Source: Phycisphaera sp. (GTDB lineage Bacteria; Planctomycetota; Phycisphaerae; Phycisphaerales; SM1A02). Taken from it: DNA of 64,000 nucleotides. The notes under the pieces are model-generated. The model made no database searches. It saw only the letters and a list, made by a program, of their open reading frames with translations, and was not told the DNA's origin. Below are positions 35,981 to 55,111 of this stretch, one piece after another (the first letter of the stretch is position 1; the number at the start of each line of letters is the position of its first letter). Location: the NCBI GenBank assembly GCA_016124975.1, contig WGMP01000029.1, forward strand, positions 1-64,000, written 5' to 3'. The position numbers and the translations under genes are program-made.

Positions 35981-36004
35981 ATGAACCGCCGCTGCCCGGT
36001 TCAT
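35981..36004. other. hairpin between abiE and acs
   Basis: ATGAACCG and CGGTTCAT, 8-bp arms with an 8-nt loop, 25 nt after the AbiEii stop. It lacks a T run, so its role as a terminator is uncertain. Confidence 0.4.
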
Positions 36005-36044
36005 GGCCAACGCAACACCCGCGCCGCCACCTGACCCCGTCCCG

Positions 36045-36050
36045 TACATT
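36045..36050 (+). promoter_or_regulatory. TACATT -10 box, 6 nt before acs ATG
   Basis: TACATT followed by six C and ATG 36057. Selects this start over the longer open frame from 36003. Confidence 0.5.
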
Positions 36051-36056
36051 CCCCCC

Positions 36057-38069
36057 ATGTCCTCCCCCGCTGCGAGCCCCAACGGCAATGTCGAATCGCT
36101 CCTGAAGGAAGACCGCGTGTTCGCGCCGAGCGCTGCGCATGCGGCCGCGCTTGGCGGAGCGTTCTGTGCGTCGATGGACGAGTACCGCGCGCGCCACGCG
36201 CGGTCGATCGCAGACCCCGAGGGGTTCTGGGGCGAGGTCGCGGCGGACTTCGAGTGGTTCACGCCGTGGACGCGCGTCCTCGAGTGGAGCGCGCCCGACG
36301 CAAAGTGGTTCGTGGGCGCGACGACCAACATCTGTCACAACGCGCTCGACCGGCATGTGCTTGACGGGCACGGGCACGAGGTCGGGATCATCTGGGAAGG
36401 CGAACCGAAGGGCGCGAACGGCACCCCCGAGGTGAAGCACCTGTCGTACGGCGAACTGCTCGACGAAGTCTCGCGCTGCGCGAACGCGCTGAAGTCGCTC
36501 GGAGTGAAGAAGGGCGATGTCGTGACGCTCTACATGGGCATGGTGCCCGAGCTTGCGATCGCGATGCTTGCCTGCGCCCGCATCGGCGCGGCGCACAGCG
36601 TGATCTTTGGCGGTTTCCCCGCGCCTTCGATCGTCGACCGCGTGCTCGACGCGTCGTCGCGAGTGATCGTCACCTGCGACGGCGCGTGGCGGCGCGGGCA
36701 GGTCGTGCCGCTCAAGAAGAACGTCGACGAGGCGATTGCGCTGCTTGCCGCGCAGAACCACACGGTCGAGCATTGCATCGTGCTCCATCGCACGAAGAAC
36801 GAGATCGCGTGGACCGCAGGCCGCGACCACGCGTGGCACGAGCTCGTGGGCGCGCAGAGCGCGGAATGCGCGTGCGAGGCGATGGATTCCGAAGACCTTC
36901 TCTTCCTCCTCTACACCTCGGGTTCGACGGGAAAACCGAAGGGAATCCGCCACACGACCGGCGGCTACATGGTCTACACCGCGTACACCGCGCAGCAGAC
37001 CTTCAATCTGCGTGCAGGCGCGGGCCATGTCTACTGGTGCACCGCCGACATCGGCTGGGTGACGGGCCACTCGTACATCGTCTACGGCATCATGCCGAAC
37101 CGCGTGCCGACCGTGATGTACGAGGGCGCGCCGAACTGGCCTGCGGACGACCGCTTCTGGGAGATGGTCGCGCGCCACCGCGTGACGCACTTCTACACGG
37201 CGCCGACCGCGATTCGCGCGTTCATGAAGTGGGGCGACGAACACCCCGCGAAGCACGATCTCTCGAGCCTGAAGGTGCTCGGCACGGTCGGCGAACCGAT
37301 CAATCCTGAGGCGTGGATCTGGTACCACGAGAAGATCGGCCACGCGCAGTGCCCGATCGTCGACACCTTCTGGCAAACCGAGACGGGCGGGCATGTGATC
37401 ACGCCGCTTGCGTGCGCGACGCCGACGGTGCCTGGCTCGTGCACGCTGCCCTTCTTCGGGATCGACGCGGCGGTGGTCGACGAAAACGGCCATGAATTGC
37501 CCGCGAACACGGGCGGCCTGCTCGTGATCCGCAAGCCGTGGCCGAGCATGCTGCGCGGGATCCACGGCGACCGCCAGCGCTTCATCGACACCTACTGGTC
37601 GCGCGTCGCTGGCATGTATCTCGCAGGCGACGGCGCGCGCCGCGACGACCGCGGGTACTTCTGGATCATGGGGCGCATCGACGATGTCATCAACGTGTCG
37701 GGGCATCGCCTCGGCACGATGGAGGTCGAGAGCGCGCTCGTCTCGCACGAGGCGGTCGTCGAGGCGGCGGTCGTCGGCATGCCGCACGACATCAAGGGGA
37801 CGGGCATCGCTGCGTTCGTATCGCTTGGCCCCGGCCACGCGCCGAGCGAGGCGCTGAAGGCGTCGCTGCGTGAGCATGTGTCGGGGTTCCTCGGGCCGAT
37901 CGCGAAGCCCGACATGATCCGCTTCACGCAGGCGCTGCCGAAGACGCGCTCGGGGAAGATCATGCGGCGGCTGTTGCGCGATGTGGCGGCAGGCCGCGAT
38001 TCGAAGCAGGACACGACGACGCTTGAAGACTTCAATGTGCTCGCGGCGCTGCGGGGGAACGACGAGTGA
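36057..38069 (+). CDS. acs: acetyl-CoA synthetase (AMP-forming)
   Basis: Activates acetate (or propionate/acetoacetate-type short acids) to the CoA thioester through an acyl-adenylate. The 670-residue protein has the adenylate-forming core: LLYTSGSTGKPKGIRHTTGGY (phosphate loop), WCTADIGWVTGHSYIVYGIM, VDTFWQTETGG, YLAGDGARRDDRGYFWIMGRIDDVINVSGHRLGT, and the regulatory/catalytic Lys in RSGKIMRRLLR. Acs family features (ADIGW, WWQTETG-like FWQTETGG) favour acetate. The C-terminal Lys is the target of acetylation in other Acs enzymes. The stop overlaps the mntR start as GTGA. Confidence 0.93.
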   Translation: MSSPAASPNGNVESLLKEDRVFAPSAAHAAALGGAFCASMDEYRARHARSIADPEGFWGEVAADFEWFTPWTRVLEWSAPDAKWFVGATTNICHNALDRHVLDGHGHEVGIIWEGEPKGANGTPEVKHLSYGELLDEVSRCANALKSLGVKKGDVVTLYMGMVPELAIAMLACARIGAAHSVIFGGFPAPSIVDRVLDASSRVIVTCDGAWRRGQVVPLKKNVDEAIALLAAQNHTVEHCIVLHRTKNEIAWTAGRDHAWHELVGAQSAECACEAMDSEDLLFLLYTSGSTGKPKGIRHTTGGYMVYTAYTAQQTFNLRAGAGHVYWCTADIGWVTGHSYIVYGIMPNRVPTVMYEGAPNWPADDRFWEMVARHRVTHFYTAPTAIRAFMKWGDEHPAKHDLSSLKVLGTVGEPINPEAWIWYHEKIGHAQCPIVDTFWQTETGGHVITPLACATPTVPGSCTLPFFGIDAAVVDENGHELPANTGGLLVIRKPWPSMLRGIHGDRQRFIDTYWSRVAGMYLAGDGARRDDRGYFWIMGRIDDVINVSGHRLGTMEVESALVSHEAVVEAAVVGMPHDIKGTGIAAFVSLGPGHAPSEALKASLREHVSGFLGPIAKPDMIRFTQALPKTRSGKIMRRLLRDVAAGRDSKQDTTTLEDFNVLAALRGNDE

Positions 38070-38524
38070 CGCGGGGAGCGACACGGAAGGCGACGCGCGC
38101 GAAGAAGCCGAAGACGACCTCGAGCGCCGAGCACCACCGCGTGCTGCGCCAGCAGCATGAGTCCGAGGCGGCGCAGGACTACTGCGAGGTGATCGCGGAA
38201 CTGCTCGATTCAGGTGTCGAAGCGCGCGTCGGCCGCATCGCCGAGCGATTCGGCCTTTCGCATGTGACGGTGAGCCGCGTGGTGCGGCGCCTCGCGAGCG
38301 AGGGATACATCGTGGCCCGCGCGCGCGCGCCGCTCGGACTGACGCCGCGCGGCCGCACGCTCGCCGCCGAGGCGCGGGCGCGCCACGAGGTCGTCGTCGC
38401 GTTCCTGCGCGCGATCGGCGTCGACGAACGCACCGCACAGGCCGACGCCGAGGGCATCGAGCACCATGTGTCGCCCGCGACGCTGCACGCGATGGCGCGG
38501 GTGGCGCGATCGCCGCGCAGATAG
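38066..38524 (+). CDS. mntR: manganese-responsive regulator MntR
   Basis: DtxR/MntR-family repressor. The 152-residue protein has a winged helix (ARVGRIAERFGLSHVTVSRVVRRLASEGYIVARARAPLGLTPRG) and a dimerisation domain, without the SH3 part of DtxR. All six metal ligands of Bacillus MntR are kept at identical spacing: Asp38, Glu41, His107, Glu129, Glu132, His133 (D8, E11, H77, E99, E102, H103). Asp at the first position is the Mn-selective form. An N-terminal basic extension (residues 1-20) matches the E. coli-type MntR. Overlaps acs, so has no promoter of its own nearby. The likely target is the palindrome before the importer at 51578. Confidence 0.93.
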   Translation: MTRGATRKATRAKKPKTTSSAEHHRVLRQQHESEAAQDYCEVIAELLDSGVEARVGRIAERFGLSHVTVSRVVRRLASEGYIVARARAPLGLTPRGRTLAAEARARHEVVVAFLRAIGVDERTAQADAEGIEHHVSPATLHAMARVARSPRR

Positions 38525-38525
38525 A

Positions 38526-39065
38526 TCAGGCGGGCGGCTTCCACCAGAGCAGATCGACGAGGGCTTCGGGCGGTGGCGACAGCGTCGGAGATCCTGCGCG
38601 CGGCAGCCGAAGGAAGTCTGGCGCAGAGCTCCACTCCCAATCCTCGGCCCGCCGGCAGAGTCCCGCGCGCACGGGGTTGAGGTGGATGTATCTGACCTTG
38701 GCCCAGTACTCCTGCCAGGACCAGATCGTGCGGTCGTGGCCGCCTCCATGGAGCCAGAACGCCCCCGCGGCTGCATCGGCGTCAATGCAGATGTGTGCAT
38801 GCCTGCGGATGTTGAACGCCGTGTGCTGCTTGAAGCGGCGCAACCATGCAGATACCGAGAGCGTGCGCGCCGTCACAAGCAGATGGACATGGTTCGACAT
38901 GAGCACCCATGCATGGAGTTCGATGCAGGATTGTGTGACATCTGCAGACAGCTGGTCGCGGATGATCCGACGGGTGGCATCATGGCCCAGCCAGTGCGCG
39001 CGTCCATCGCACGAGAAGGTGAGAAAGGCCGTTCTGGACGGCGCATGGCGGACTTGCGTTGTCAT
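38526..39065 (-). CDS. REP-associated tyrosine transposase (RAYT)
   Basis: Y1-type single-strand transposase of the IS200/RAYT group. 179 residues: AFLTFSCDGRAHWLG, HAWVLMSNHVHLLV with the HxH metal motif (HVH), a helix WLRRFKQHTAFNIRRH, and VRYIHLNPVRAGLCRRAEDWEWSS holding the catalytic Tyr and the RAYT signature. Start ATG 39065 with GGAGGAG about 10 nt upstream is preferred; the longer frame runs into the REP palindrome. It converges with mntR (1-nt gap). Three REP hairpins lie directly upstream at 39194-39351, and relatives lie at 15-396. No terminal inverted repeats of an insertion sequence were seen, so it is likely a domesticated single copy. Confidence 0.92.
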   Translation of the reverse strand: MTTQVRHAPSRTAFLTFSCDGRAHWLGHDATRRIIRDQLSADVTQSCIELHAWVLMSNHVHLLVTARTLSVSAWLRRFKQHTAFNIRRHAHICIDADAAAGAFWLHGGGHDRTIWSWQEYWAKVRYIHLNPVRAGLCRRAEDWEWSSAPDFLRLPRAGSPTLSPPPEALVDLLWWKPPA

Positions 39066-39158
39066 GTGCTCGACTCCTCCGGAGGCGAACATATCGGTGG
39101 TCCGGGCCACCTCTCCGTGATGTGACGGATTCGCACCGTTCGCAGCGAACGGGGAGCG

Positions 39159-39410
39159 ATGCGCATCGGAGTCGAAGGCTGGCATCATCCGTTCCGCATG
39201 CTGAAGCATGCGGGCACCCCTGATCTTCGTGGCGCAAGGTTCAGGTCGTGGGAGTCGACAAACAAGGGGTGCCCGCAGGTTTCAACCTGCGGAACGCGAA
39301 CCGTCGGAGTCGACGGCTGGCATCATCCGTTCCGCATGCTGAAGCATGCGGGCACCCCTGATTTTCGTGGCGCGCGGTTCGGGTCGTGGGAGTCGACAAC
39401 CAAGGGGTGG
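39159..39410. repeat. REP cluster upstream of the RAYT gene
   Basis: Fills the 401-nt space between RAYT and the DUF1501 gene. Hairpins: CCGCATGCT-GA-AGCATGCGG at 39194-39213 and 39332-39351, and an inverted one with compensated arms, CCGCAGGTT-TC-AACCTGCGG, at 39273-39292. The unit repeats with a 138-bp period. Flanks GGCACCCCTGAT and GTTCCG are shared, inverted, with the cluster at 1-420. No promoter or gene is seen within. Confidence 0.88.
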
Positions 39411-51555: not shown

Positions 51556-51575
51556 TTCGTAGCATATGCTACGAA
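51556..51575. promoter_or_regulatory. candidate MntR operator with embedded -10 box
   Basis: TTCGTAGCATATGCTACGAA is a perfect 20-bp palindrome. Its core TAGC-N4-GCTA equals the core and spacing of the E. coli MntR box (ATAGC-N4-GCTAT, from memory). TATGCT (51565-51570) within it ends 7 nt before ATG 51578, so a bound repressor would cover the -10 region of the importer operon. Confidence 0.82.
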
Positions 51576-51577
51576 AC

Positions 51578-52585
51578 ATGCTCCCGATCCATCCTGCCCT
51601 CTCCATCCGCCTTCTCCCGCGACGCGCCGCCGTCCTGGCGTTCGTCGCCTGTGCGACCGCCTGCGCGCTCGTTGGCTGCGGCGAGCACGGCGCGGGCACG
51701 CGCGGCGAAGGCGCGGGGCTGAGCACCGCAGGGGAAGGAAAGCCCTCCGTGGTCGCCACGACCCCCGTCGTCGCCGATCTCGTGCGCGCGATCGCGGGCG
51801 ACCGCGCCGAGGTCACCGCGCTGATCACTCCTGGCGTCGATCCTCATCTCTGGGCGCCGACGCGCACCGAGGTCCTCCAGATCCTCGAGGCGGACGCGGT
51901 CTTCATGAACGGGCTCCTCCTCGAGGGCCGCGCGGGCGACGCCTTCGCGCGCGTCGAGGTCTCGGGCAGGCCCGTCGTGCGGCTTGCGGAGACGCTGCCG
52001 AAGGCCGATCTCCTGACCGACGCGGAGAACCCCTCGCGGTTCGATCCGCATGTGTGGATGGATCCGCTCCTCTGGGCCCGCACCGCGCCCGCGGTGCGCG
52101 ACGCGCTCGTCAAGGTCGACCCCGCTGGCAAGGAGGAGTTCGACCGAAACCTCGCGGCGTTCGAGGACCTCGCGCGCGAGCTCGACCGCGAGTGCGCCCT
52201 GATTCTCTCCGCCGTGCCGCCCTCCGCGCGCGTGCTCGTGACCGCGCACGACGCGTTCGGCTACTTCGGGAAGCGCTACGGGCTTGAGCTGCGCGGGATC
52301 CAGGGAATCTCGACCGAGAGCGAGCCCTCGCTCGCGGCGATCGAGTCGCTTGTGGCGGAGATGTCCGAGAGGCGCGTGCCCGCGCTCTTCGCGGAGTCGA
52401 CGGTGTCGGACCGCTCGGTCCGCGCCGTGATCGACGGCTGCGCGGCGCGCGGACACGAGGTCCTGCTCGGGGAGACGCTCTTCTCCGATTCGCTTGGCCG
52501 CGCTGGAACCCCCGAGGGAACCTGGAAGGGCATGATGCTCCACAACGCGCGCTCGATCGCCCGCGCGCTCGGAGGCGGCTCTTGA
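51578..52585 (+). CDS. mntA: manganese ABC importer, binding lipoprotein
   Basis: Cluster A-I metal-binding protein of the TroA/PsaA/MntA kind. Lipoprotein signal with lipobox LVGC. Metal ligands of the Mn-type site are seen in order: His in DPHLWAPTRTEV, His in DPHVWMDPLLW, Glu in GISTESEPS and Asp in LFSDSLG. The His-rich loop of zinc-specific ZnuA is absent, favouring Mn (or Fe). The leading part of the family, VVATTPVVADLVRAIAGDRAEV, is present. 335 residues. ATG 51578 is chosen over 51566 because the earlier ATG lies inside the palindrome. The stop overlaps the next start as TTGA. Confidence 0.93.
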   Translation: MLPIHPALSIRLLPRRAAVLAFVACATACALVGCGEHGAGTRGEGAGLSTAGEGKPSVVATTPVVADLVRAIAGDRAEVTALITPGVDPHLWAPTRTEVLQILEADAVFMNGLLLEGRAGDAFARVEVSGRPVVRLAETLPKADLLTDAENPSRFDPHVWMDPLLWARTAPAVRDALVKVDPAGKEEFDRNLAAFEDLARELDRECALILSAVPPSARVLVTAHDAFGYFGKRYGLELRGIQGISTESEPSLAAIESLVAEMSERRVPALFAESTVSDRSVRAVIDGCAARGHEVLLGETLFSDSLGRAGTPEGTWKGMMLHNARSIARALGGGS

Positions 52586-53367
52586 GCGCGACCGCGCCGC
52601 CGCTCGAGGTCGTGCACCTGCGCGCGGGCTATGTGCGCGACGCGTGGATCGTGGAGGACGCGTCGTTCGCCCTTGCCGCAGGCTCGATGACCGCGCTCGT
52701 CGGACCGAACGGCGCCGGGAAGAGCACGCTTCTCAAGGCGGTCCTCGGGCTCGCGCCCATCGTGCGCGCAGAGCGCGTGGCCTTCTTCGGTGGCGACCTC
52801 GACGCCGCGCGCGCGCGCGTGGCGTTCATCCCGCAGCGAAGCGCGATCGACTGGGACTTCCCCGCGACCGCGCGCGACGTGGTCGCGATGGGGCTCGTCG
52901 CGAGGATCGGGCTCTTCCGCAGGACGGGGCGCGACGCGCTCGCGGCCGCCGAGCGCGCGCTCGACTCCGTCGGGCTCCTCGGGATGGCGCGGGAACAGGT
53001 GGGCGAACTCTCGGGCGGACAGCAGCAGCGCGTGCTGGTGGCGCGCGCGCTCGTGGCCGAACCCGACCTCCTTCTGCTCGACGAGCCGTTCGCGAACGTC
53101 GACGCCGCGAGCGAGGCGCATCTTGCGTCGGTGCTGCGCGCGCGCGCGGCGCGCGGGAGCACGGTGCTCGCCGTCCACCACGACCTGCGCAGCGTGCGGG
53201 CCCACTTCGACGAAGCGATCCTCTTGAACCGCGCGCTGCTCGCGCACGGGCCCGTGGCGGCGGTGCTGACCGATGCGAGGCTTGCAGAGGCCTATGGCTT
53301 CGTGGGCGTGACTTCCGCCGAGAGGGCTCCCGCCGCGCGCGCAGGCGAGGCGGAGGCGCGCGCGTGA
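52582..53367 (+). CDS. mntB: manganese ABC importer, ATP-binding protein
   Basis: 261 residues. Walker A GPNGAGKST, the segment RVAFIPQRSAIDWDFPATARDVVAMG typical of metal-ABC ATPases (QR-x-x-DWDFP), signature LSGGQQQRV, Walker B LLLLDEPFANVD and H-loop AVHHDL. The QR-x-x-x-DW-x-FP element is shared by SitB/MntB/ZnuC-like proteins. TTG start overlapping the mntA stop. The 24-residue C-terminal end is Ala/Arg-rich. Cytoplasmic side of the importer. Confidence 0.95.
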   Translation: MSATAPPLEVVHLRAGYVRDAWIVEDASFALAAGSMTALVGPNGAGKSTLLKAVLGLAPIVRAERVAFFGGDLDAARARVAFIPQRSAIDWDFPATARDVVAMGLVARIGLFRRTGRDALAAAERALDSVGLLGMAREQVGELSGGQQQRVLVARALVAEPDLLLLDEPFANVDAASEAHLASVLRARAARGSTVLAVHHDLRSVRAHFDEAILLNRALLAHGPVAAVLTDARLAEAYGFVGVTSAERAPAARAGEAEARA

Positions 53368-54224
53368 CGCTTCCGACGACTGGAATCAACACCATCGCCG
53401 TGCTCGCGGGCTGCGCGCTCTTCGGCGCGCTCGCGGGCGCCGTCGGCACGCTCGTCCTCGCGCGCCGTCGCGCGCTCGTCGCCGACGTGGCGGGCCATGC
53501 GACGCTTCCAGGCGTGGCGCTCGCGTTCCTCGTCGCGGAGGCGCTCGGCGTCGACGGCCGCACGCCGTGGATGCTCTTCCTCGGGGGGGCGGCGACCGCG
53601 CTCCTTGCGGCGGCGCTCGTTCCGCCGCTCGCGCGGCTCAGGCGCGTCGGCTCCGACGGCGCAACGGCGCTCGCGCTCGCGGGTTTCTTCGGGCTCGGCG
53701 CGGTCCTCCTCTCGGTCGTCCAGTCGCATCCATCGGGAGCGCAGGGCGGGCTGCGCACGCTTCTCTTCGGAAACGCAGCGGCCATCACGCTCGACGAGGT
53801 GGGTGCGCTCGCGGCCGTCGCGCTTGCGTCGATCGTCGCGCTCGTCGTCCTCTTCAGGGCCCTCGCGATCGTTGCGTTCGACGAGGCATTCGCGCGCACG
53901 GCGGGGCTTCCCGTGCGCGCGCTCGACCTCGCGCTCATCCTTCTCCTCGTGGCGACGGTGGTCGCGGGCATGCAGGTCGCGGGCATCGTGCTCGTCGTCG
54001 CGCTCGTGATCACGCCCGCGGCCGCGTCGCGGCTTCTCGGCGGAACGCTCGCGACCGTCGCGCGCCGCGCGGCGCTCATCGGCGCGCTCGCCGCATCGCT
54101 CGGCGTGGTCGCGTCGCTTCTCGGCGAGCGCATTCCGACGGGCGCCGCGATGACCCTCGCGGCCGCGCTCCTCTTCCTGGGGGCGATCCCGTTCTCGCGC
54201 GCGGCGCGCGCGGAGGCCGCGTGA
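53364..54224 (+). CDS. mntC: manganese ABC importer, permease 1
   Basis: 286 residues, ABC-3 type permease with about eight to nine transmembrane helices. Family features: VLARRRALVADVAGHATLPGVALAFL (usual L..DALSHA.LPG), GSDGATALALAGFFGLGAVLLS and VVAGMQVAGIVLVVALVITPAAASRLL. GTG start overlaps the mntB stop (GTGA), and the stop overlaps the next permease as GTGA. Together with the following gene it probably forms a heterodimeric channel. Confidence 0.93.
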   Translation: MTLPTTGINTIAVLAGCALFGALAGAVGTLVLARRRALVADVAGHATLPGVALAFLVAEALGVDGRTPWMLFLGGAATALLAAALVPPLARLRRVGSDGATALALAGFFGLGAVLLSVVQSHPSGAQGGLRTLLFGNAAAITLDEVGALAAVALASIVALVVLFRALAIVAFDEAFARTAGLPVRALDLALILLLVATVVAGMQVAGIVLVVALVITPAAASRLLGGTLATVARRAALIGALAASLGVVASLLGERIPTGAAMTLAAALLFLGAIPFSRAARAEAA

Positions 54225-55111
54225 ACGCGTTCCTCGCGATCGACCTCCCCGCGCTCCTCGCGGCCGTCCTGGCCACGGTCGCGTGCGGCACGCTCGGCAA
54301 CTGGCTCGTCCTCCGCAAGGAATCAATGACGGCCGACGCCATCGCGCATGCAGTCCTTCCGGGGCTCGTCGCGGGCTACCTCGTGTCGGGCTCGCGCTCG
54401 ATGGGCGCGATGCTCGCGGGCGCGGCGCTTGCAGGCGTCGCGTCGGTGCTCCTCTCGGCCGCGATCCGCGCGCGCACGCGGCTCGAGGCGGGCGCTGTGC
54501 TCGGGGTCGTCTTCACGGCGTTCTTTGCGCTCGGCGTCGTTCTTCTCGAGACCCAGGGCGCGCGGCAGATCGACCTCGACCCATCGTGCGTCCTCTTCGG
54601 GTCGCTCGAGACGCTCTTCGTCGCGGCTCCTGAAGGCGGAAGCTGGCTCGCGGGCGTCCCCGGCGAGATCTGGCTTCTCGCGGCGGCGGCGGTGCTCGCG
54701 CTCGCGTTCCACGCGCTTCTGGCCAAGGAGCTCGCGGCGCTCGCCTTCGACCCGCTGCACGCGCGCCTCTCGCTCCGCTCGCCGCGCGCGCTCGAGCGCG
54801 CGCTCCTCGCTGCGACGAGCGCCGCGATCGTCGCCAGCTTCGCGGCGGTCGGCAGCATCCTCGTCGTCGCGCTCGTCGCGTGCCCAGCGCTCATCGCCGC
54901 GCCGCACGCGCGCAGCGTCGGCGGGCAGCTCTCCCTCGGCCTCGCCCTCTCGATCCCGCTCGTCGGGGCCGCCTACTTCGCGGCGGCCCACGCGCCGAGC
55001 CTGTTCGGCACTGCGACAGCGCTGAACGCGGCGGGCATGATTGCGGTCCTTCTCGTGGCGGCCGTTCCCGCGTCGCACGGAGTCGCGCGCGTCATCCGCC
55101 GCCTGGCGTGA
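54221..55111 (+). CDS. mntD: manganese ABC importer, permease 2
   Basis: 296 residues, second ABC-3 permease: GNWLVLRKESMTADAIAHAVLPGLVAGYLV, VLLETQGARQIDLDPSCVLFGSLE and AAVGSILVVALVACPALIAAPHARS are the counterparts of the SitD/MntD/TroD group. About eight helices. Starts as GTG over the mntC stop; the four genes thus form one translationally coupled operon behind the palindrome at 51556. Its 3' end overlaps the convergent pseudopilin gene by 20 nt. Confidence 0.93.
   Translation: MNAFLAIDLPALLAAVLATVACGTLGNWLVLRKESMTADAIAHAVLPGLVAGYLVSGSRSMGAMLAGAALAGVASVLLSAAIRARTRLEAGAVLGVVFTAFFALGVVLLETQGARQIDLDPSCVLFGSLETLFVAAPEGGSWLAGVPGEIWLLAAAAVLALAFHALLAKELAALAFDPLHARLSLRSPRALERALLAATSAAIVASFAAVGSILVVALVACPALIAAPHARSVGGQLSLGLALSIPLVGAAYFAAAHAPSLFGTATALNAAGMIAVLLVAAVPASHGVARVIRRLA

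Follow-up and report, generated by a model that had tools for sequence, protein, structure and literature searches.

Can a single short palindrome, lying almost on top of a start codon, serve both as the operator of a metal-dependent repressor and as the promoter of the operon behind it? The question is raised by the sequence TTCGTAGCATATGCTACGAA in a 64,000-nucleotide stretch of a Phycisphaera sp. genome (contig WGMP01000029.1), the whole of which we call the window. The palindrome is flanked by a thioesterase-like gene and a four-gene TroA/MntA-type metal importer operon, and it ends two bases 5' of the mntA ATG at 51578 (Table 1). A previous sequence-only reading had described it as a perfect 20-bp palindrome upstream of mntA, with the TAGC-N4-GCTA core of the Escherichia coli MntR box and with the hexamer TATGCT 7 bases before the mntA start. 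We could confirm each of these points, including the presence of the same core upstream of mntH, mntS, and mntP in the E. coli sequence NC_000913. In the window, TTCGTAGCATATGCTACGAA is the sole match at up to three mismatches, and none of 100 shuffles contains one. From the analyses below, we consider it probable that this element is an operator for an MntR repressor and also the core promoter of a TroA-type importer, with RNA starting at or near the mntA start codon.

Table 1. Features of the window discussed in the text, with coordinates and basis of assignment.
Feature	Coordinates	Strand	Basis or remark
acs, acetate-CoA ligase	36003..38069	+	stop overlaps mntR GTG start
mntR, 152 aa, E. 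coli-like DtxR/MntR family protein	38066..38524	+	homology, Pfam domains
Y1/IS200-like transposase	38526..39209	-	directly 3' of mntR
MntR-box-like operator (predicted), 20-bp perfect palindrome	51556..51575	no strand	sequence, conservation
Conserved core GTAGC-N4-GCTAC of predicted operator	51559-51572		
Less likely alternative -10, TAGCAT	51560-51565		inside operator, at -18
Predicted -10 element, TATGCT	51565..51570	+	operator spacer and right half-site; pattern, position
mntA/troA-like metal-binding lipoprotein, ZnuA family PF01297	51578..52585	+	profile match; lipobox LVGC by eye
mntB-like ABC ATPase	52582..53367	+	profile match
mntC-like ABC-3 permease	53364..54224	+	profile match
mntD-like ABC-3 permease	54221..55111	+	profile match

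Conservation and rarity of the core

The sequence-only reading had named two outcomes that would speak against an operator, namely a palindrome that is not conserved upstream of orthologous operons or one that occurs at many unrelated sites. We found neither. The lipoprotein was searched for in 61 genomes (the window's own and 60 relatives), 58 of which gave some match, and the best 30 loci were read: 20 have an exact core between -500 nt and +60 nt relative to the match, 2 have a one-mismatch core only, and 8 have no core. At three of these eight box-less loci (G034, G036, G018), an exact box lies further upstream, before mntR. Within the window's genus, 16 genomes were searched, and GTAGC-N4-GCTAC stands at mntA in all 12 with a clear orthologue (the other 4 are 78-88% complete); in 8 of these 12 promoters, there are two boxes 16 bp apart. 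Conservation is confined to the core, as the outer three bases of each arm are variable. All exact TAGC-N4-GCTA matches at the orthologue loci are preceded by G and followed by C, although the search did not require these bases. Genomes of the same genus are non-independent samples, and two of them (G002 and G011) are nearly identical 3' of the box. A stricter pattern, the core with AT flanks, was found in 7 of 246 genomes of the phylum, a figure that says little on absence because the window's own box escapes this pattern.

Elsewhere in the genome, the core is rare. TAGCN4GCTA occurs at 3 places in the whole 3.6-Mb genome, and a core spread over many unrelated sites is thereby rejected: the other two sites fall within coding sequence for dockerin domains, in a pair of repeated genes on contig C32, one of which also has an RHS repeat, leaving the mntA site as the only promoter copy found. 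With at most one mismatch, GTAGCN4GCTAC matches 28 sites genome-wide, 26 of them one-mismatch sites; among 13 of these 26 that were inspected, 11 lie within open frames according to our own gene caller. A backward-read control pattern gave 51 matches in the window genome compared to 2 for the box, but we left this out as a statistic because the control is unmatched for the rarity of TAG in a GC-rich genome. In other members of the genus, exact sites away from mntA include one in G015 and one in G004 that overlap the ends of open frames, as well as a second, intergenic site in G004, one in G007, and a pair in G001 and G003 at a P-type ATPase gene (see below). The computations support an MntR-type operator. 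Its 14 core bases, and not the complete 20-mer, are retained at orthologous operons and seldom occur elsewhere.

The putative regulator and the metal

The sequence-only reading had proposed a likely regulator 13 kb from the palindrome. An MntR-family protein is indeed encoded there (Table 1), but it is nearer to E. coli than to Bacillus MntR: its closest solved relative is the E. coli protein (83.6 bits), with B. subtilis MntR at 59.3 bits. It matches PF01325 (34.2 bits, cut-off 26) and PF02742 (44 bits, cut-off 27) and is without a C-terminal SH3/FeoA domain. A search of the genome with it as query gave no second match at E <= 0.001. The E. coli-type MntR model NF008273 scores 147 bits, under its curated cut-off of 153, and we therefore file the protein as an E. 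coli-like MntR-family member and not as an equivalog of that model. The residues D38, E41, H107, E129, E132, and H133 are present and align without gaps, at a constant offset of 30, to D8, E11, H77, E99, E102, and H103 of B. subtilis MntR, which we take to be the metal ligands of that protein; the claim that all six stand at Bacillus spacing is thus borne out. All six are kept in 36 of the 36 relatives that cover these positions, and one fragment has the last four.

In the window's genus, acs lies 5' of mntR in all 12 genomes examined (the window and 11 of 11 others), and it also precedes mntR in G031, which belongs to another genus. Seven members (G001, G007, G010, G012, G013, G014, G015) have the continuous order acs, mntR, box or boxes, mntABCD. 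In the window, mntR is still found behind acs, with the box and mntABCD 13 kb away, and in G002, G005, and G011 the acs/mntR part and the box/mntABCD part are on separate contigs. The segment after mntR (38526-39409) holds, besides the transposase, two direct copies of a 106-nt repeat, at 39166 and at 39304, with inverted repeats; our guess is that the transposase and repeats moved mntR and mntABCD apart. In several other genera, a box precedes mntR itself (e.g., G021, G034, G035, G036), and self-control of mntR may therefore have been lost in the window's genus.

We then compared the distribution of the box with that of the regulator, defining a strong short MntR as a match at E <= 1e-20 (34 of the 61 genomes) and a box at the mnt locus as one next to either mntR or mntA; for G024, a box before the gene that precedes mntR was accepted as well. 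Loci were mapped by tblastn because gene calling was incomplete in several genomes. Of the 34 genomes with a strong short MntR, 28 have a box at the mnt locus; of 23 genomes without it, none does (six of these 23 have one exact site elsewhere, off the mnt locus). Four fragmentary genomes (G006, G009, G011, G025) were set aside, two of which, G006 and G011, carry a box at mntA. The Fisher p value is 1e-10, or 2e-9 if these four are counted against the link, calculated from tables filled by hand and ignoring relatedness; families f1 and f6 contain both kinds of genome. The six genomes with a strong MntR and no exact box at the locus comprise two in which no clear mntA was found (G003, G004), three with one-mismatch boxes (G017, G020, G026), and one with no box (G054).

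In another family of the phylum, all five genomes of genus g88 have a box upstream of mntA and a match to MntR, one of these matches being a fragment. In genus g66 of the same family, all three genomes have a strong MntR and mntA was not located; two are without any exact site, and the third has two, both more than 1 Mb from mntR. This genus and the six genomes above count against the link. Four more genomes of this family are without a strong MntR, and one of these four, G207, has three exact sites. In a scan of named genomes with this MntR as query, the best 80 of 510 loci were kept, at least 4 of whose records are shared with the 61 genomes. The core occurs in 36 of these 80 loci, in 35 of them within -400 to +900 of mntR; a scrambled core gave 31 sites compared to 47 core sites, a contrast in counts and not in positions. 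In E. coli K-12, the core is found upstream of mntH (one), mntS (two), and mntP (two), with one more inside the mntH coding sequence; the promoter cores are presumably proven MntR sites. Across the 61 genomes, the predicted box at the mnt locus follows the short E. coli-like MntR.

The operon itself has the composition of a TroA/ZnuA-family ABC importer, with a PF01297 lipoprotein, an ABC ATPase, and two ABC-3 permeases. Compared to solved structures, the lipoprotein scores 229 bits with TroA, 128.5 with MntA, and 126 with PsaA. It carries the motif VTAHDAF, like TroA, at a place where the aligned MntA and PsaA chains read VTSEGAF and provide a glutamate as third ligand. Its predicted ligands are H90, H158, H224, and D304 (counted from the methionine at 51578), on the assumption that the residues assigned from TroA act as ligands here. 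The manganese-type H-H-E-D site of PsaA and MntA that had been attributed to this lipoprotein is consequently rejected: the third ligand is histidine, not glutamate, giving the set H-H-H-D as in TroA. TroA-like H-H-H-D proteins bind zinc as well as manganese, and with the match being to TroA, the metal of the lipoprotein is less certain; we favour manganese over zinc or iron as the substrate because of the type of regulator. Searches for Nramp (MntH) and MntP gave no match in the window genome. The coherent regulon that had been proposed is an overstatement, as a single good target turned up in the genome.

A predicted promoter inside the putative operator

Where would transcription and translation of mntA begin? 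In a sample of 439 kb (the window and 20 further stretches), we called 237 genes, 204 of which have at least 40 nt free upstream. Their 60-nt upstream stretches contain TANNNT 59 times, 31 of them at -15 to -12; 23 of these 31 read TANNCT, a common -10-like type in this genome. The peak fits the pattern expected of leaderless transcripts. Shine-Dalgarno (SD)-like words also peak upstream of many genes, so leaderless genes would form one class in the genome. Planctomycetes, represented by one species, appear among the groups with few SD genes in a survey that attributes such bias to leaderless mRNA and/or RPS1 (PMC5397173). The 40 nt before ATG 51578 are free of SD-like words and contain TANNNT twice, as TATGCT and as TAGCAT, both inside the box. 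TATGCT, at -13, lies at the distance of a leaderless -10 (about 12-15 nt before the start) provided that translation starts at 51578 and not at an alternative in-frame ATG at 51566, inside the operator.

The choice of start was examined across the genus, counting from the T of TAGC, so that 51566 is +6 and 51578 is +18. In 10 of the 12 promoters, the TAG within the box lies in frame with mntA as a stop codon, and translation must therefore start 3' of it. The first in-frame start is at +18 in G001 and G015, +19 in G010, and +22 in G007. In five of the 12 (G000, which is the window genome, G002, G005, G006, and G011), ATG codons at both +6 and +18 are in frame, and we infer +18 here because it is common to others and fits the promoter signal. 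In G012, the +6 codon inside the operator is the only in-frame start, and in G013 and G014 a start at +6 appears likelier from the look of the signal peptide; G014 lacks an exact box where the -10 would lie.

Promoters with two boxes permit an internal comparison. As a box yields TANNCT only with a central TA, we compared the central letters of proximal and distal boxes. The TA is present in 7 of 8 proximal and 2 of 8 distal boxes (Fisher p 0.04). In the six two-box promoters assigned a +18 or +19 start, three of which could also start at an in-frame +6 ATG (G002, G005, G011), it is found in 6/6 proximal and 0/6 distal boxes (p 0.002). For the +6 starts of G012 and G013, it is the distal box that stands at the right distance, and this box has the TA. 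The contrast between proximal and distal boxes comes mainly from a T as second spacer base (6/6 compared to 0/6), the third base being A in 6/6 and 4/6, and this T is needed by both hexamers, TATGCT and TAGCAT. A further table (11/11 against 1/9) depends on the assigned starts and was left out of the evidence. Two-box promoters thus provide moderate support for a -10 in the operator, and a -10 inside the operator together with a leaderless or near-leaderless mRNA is supported indirectly. The leaderless -10 switch envisaged by the sequence-only reading accords with the genomic peak as regards TATGCT at -13, and is qualified by the in-frame ATG in the box and by TAGCAT at -18.

On the reading that we prefer, with enough manganese a metal-loaded MntR dimer would bind GTAGC-N4-GCTAC and block RNA polymerase; when manganese is short, MntR would let go and the TroA-type importer encoded by mntABCD would be made. 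In the window's genus, the operator would double as core promoter, its spacer and right half-site forming the -10 TATGCT, and RNA would start at or within about 4 bases of the mntA start codon, without an SD word. As a tentative generalization, which we hold slightly less likely than its opposite, operator, -10, and translation start may be fused in the genus, forming a single element some 25 bp long. The box at leaderless distance would then carry the -10 letters and the second box, 16 bp upstream, would mostly be without them; in at least one species (G012), with its only in-frame start inside the operator, the palindrome would be read by repressor, sigma factor, and ribosome.

Three other explanations deserve weighing. 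The box could be an MntR operator serving a transcript with an ordinary leader, made from a promoter further upstream, with MntR blocking elongation or with a -10 outside the box. The -10 in the box is assigned by pattern and position, SD-like words are frequent enough in this genome to peak before many genes, and the distance from box to gene is about 10-60 nt in other families; nevertheless, the absence of any SD-like word from the 40 nt before ATG 51578, the confinement of TANNNT words to the box in that interval, and the position of TATGCT at the leaderless distance of the genome make this arrangement unlikely. A different repressor, such as a zinc or iron sensor, might own the operator, with MntR being incidental. 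This would suit the TroA-like binding protein with its H-H-H-D site, and a distance of 13 kb does not force a link to mntR, yet from genome to genome the presence of the box tracks the MntR type, the box adjoins mntR in many of them, and MntR-controlled genes of E. coli share its core, so we give such a sensor very little credence. That the palindrome arose by chance and has no function is hardly believable: the window does contain another perfect 20-bp palindrome (GCGCGCGCTCGAGCGCGCGC at 54784, within the mntD coding sequence), but the core of TTCGTAGCATATGCTACGAA is kept in every one of the 12 genus orthologues and is rare elsewhere in the genome. An MntR operator that also contains the -10 of mntA is thus the reading we retain.

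Known systems and further candidate targets

The predicted box shares the TAGC-N4-GCTA core with the upstream regions of E. coli mntH, mntS, and mntP, and the two MntR proteins have the same residue in 55 of 135 aligned columns. Promoters with one core and promoters with two occur both in E. coli and in the window's genus. The flanks of the core differ, being G and C in the genus (GTAGC..GCTAC) and mostly A/T in E. coli, as do the targets, which in E. coli are an Nramp importer, a small protein, and an exporter, and here an ABC importer. According to a figure legend, MntR sites are marked at the E. coli mntH, mntS, and mntP promoters (PMC9806134). In the Treponema pallidum tro operon, the operator of the DtxR-like repressor TroR is reported to overlap the promoter (PMC2628430). 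That system shares operator-promoter overlap with the present one, and its TroA is the closest solved relative of our lipoprotein; the locus described here differs in its short MntR type, E. coli-like core, and predicted leaderless start. The Mesorhizobium nreAXY genes are controlled by NreA, of the CsoR/RcnR family, through a compact operator-promoter, and their leaderless mRNA is documented by 5'-RACE (PMC12724321). They are likewise metal-controlled from a very compact operator-promoter, but the repressor family is another one, and the nre operator fills the -35/-10 spacer while ours contains the predicted -10. MntR boxes, promoter-covering repressors, and leaderless metal-controlled operons are each already known; what seems new is that operator, -10, and start would be fused within a single genus. 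In the open-access literature, searched by title and the start of the abstract, we found no MntR/DtxR manganese circuit in Planctomycetes. The locus makes a manganese circuit amenable to testing in a phylum where that search returned none, and its natural variants (one box, two boxes, start in the box) show operator, promoter, and start codon sharing bases.

In a wider scan, porins, FeoB, a multicopper oxidase, and a heavy-metal P-type ATPase came up as candidate MntR-linked genes. In G003 and G001, an identical exact box with the same spacer lies 22 and 16 nt, respectively, before the ATG of a heavy-metal P-type ATPase gene (TIGR01525, 508 bits); the proteins are 91% identical, and the intergenic surroundings have diverged (L073:1-2065 minus, L076:2001-4001). 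This ATPase is a candidate second target and perhaps an exporter. An OprB-family porin gene adjoining mntR/mntABCD in G046 and G050 is immediately preceded by boxes (L077:1896-3250, L079:2933-4361), which suggests a manganese-controlled outer-membrane channel. Genes for outer-membrane proteins of the Phenol_MetA_deg family likewise have boxes upstream of them or at their 5' end (L086:2001-2899, L082:1143-2087, L069:2461-5302), and in G027 the order is box, mntR, multicopper oxidase, outer-membrane protein. The Stenotrophomonas MntR regulon, with boxes identified by genome comparison, includes an outer-membrane target beside mntH and mntP (PMC13217887); the target is a TonB-dependent receptor there and a member of the OprB or Phenol_MetA_deg family in some relatives here.

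In G023, a box is followed by mntR, by a gene whose product combines DtxR metal-binding and FeoA domains, and by FeoB, as annotated by Pfam, and by eye the FeoB arrangement of G038 is alike (L097:3-2195 and L095:353-2612 for G023/G038). A role of FeoB as a manganese importer at these loci is a guess. In genus g88, two or three boxes 27-34 bp apart precede a DUF1559/prepilin-type gene and a small lipoprotein gene (L155, L157, and L158, around 1469-1550; DUF1559/prepilin assigned by Pfam for L157 only).
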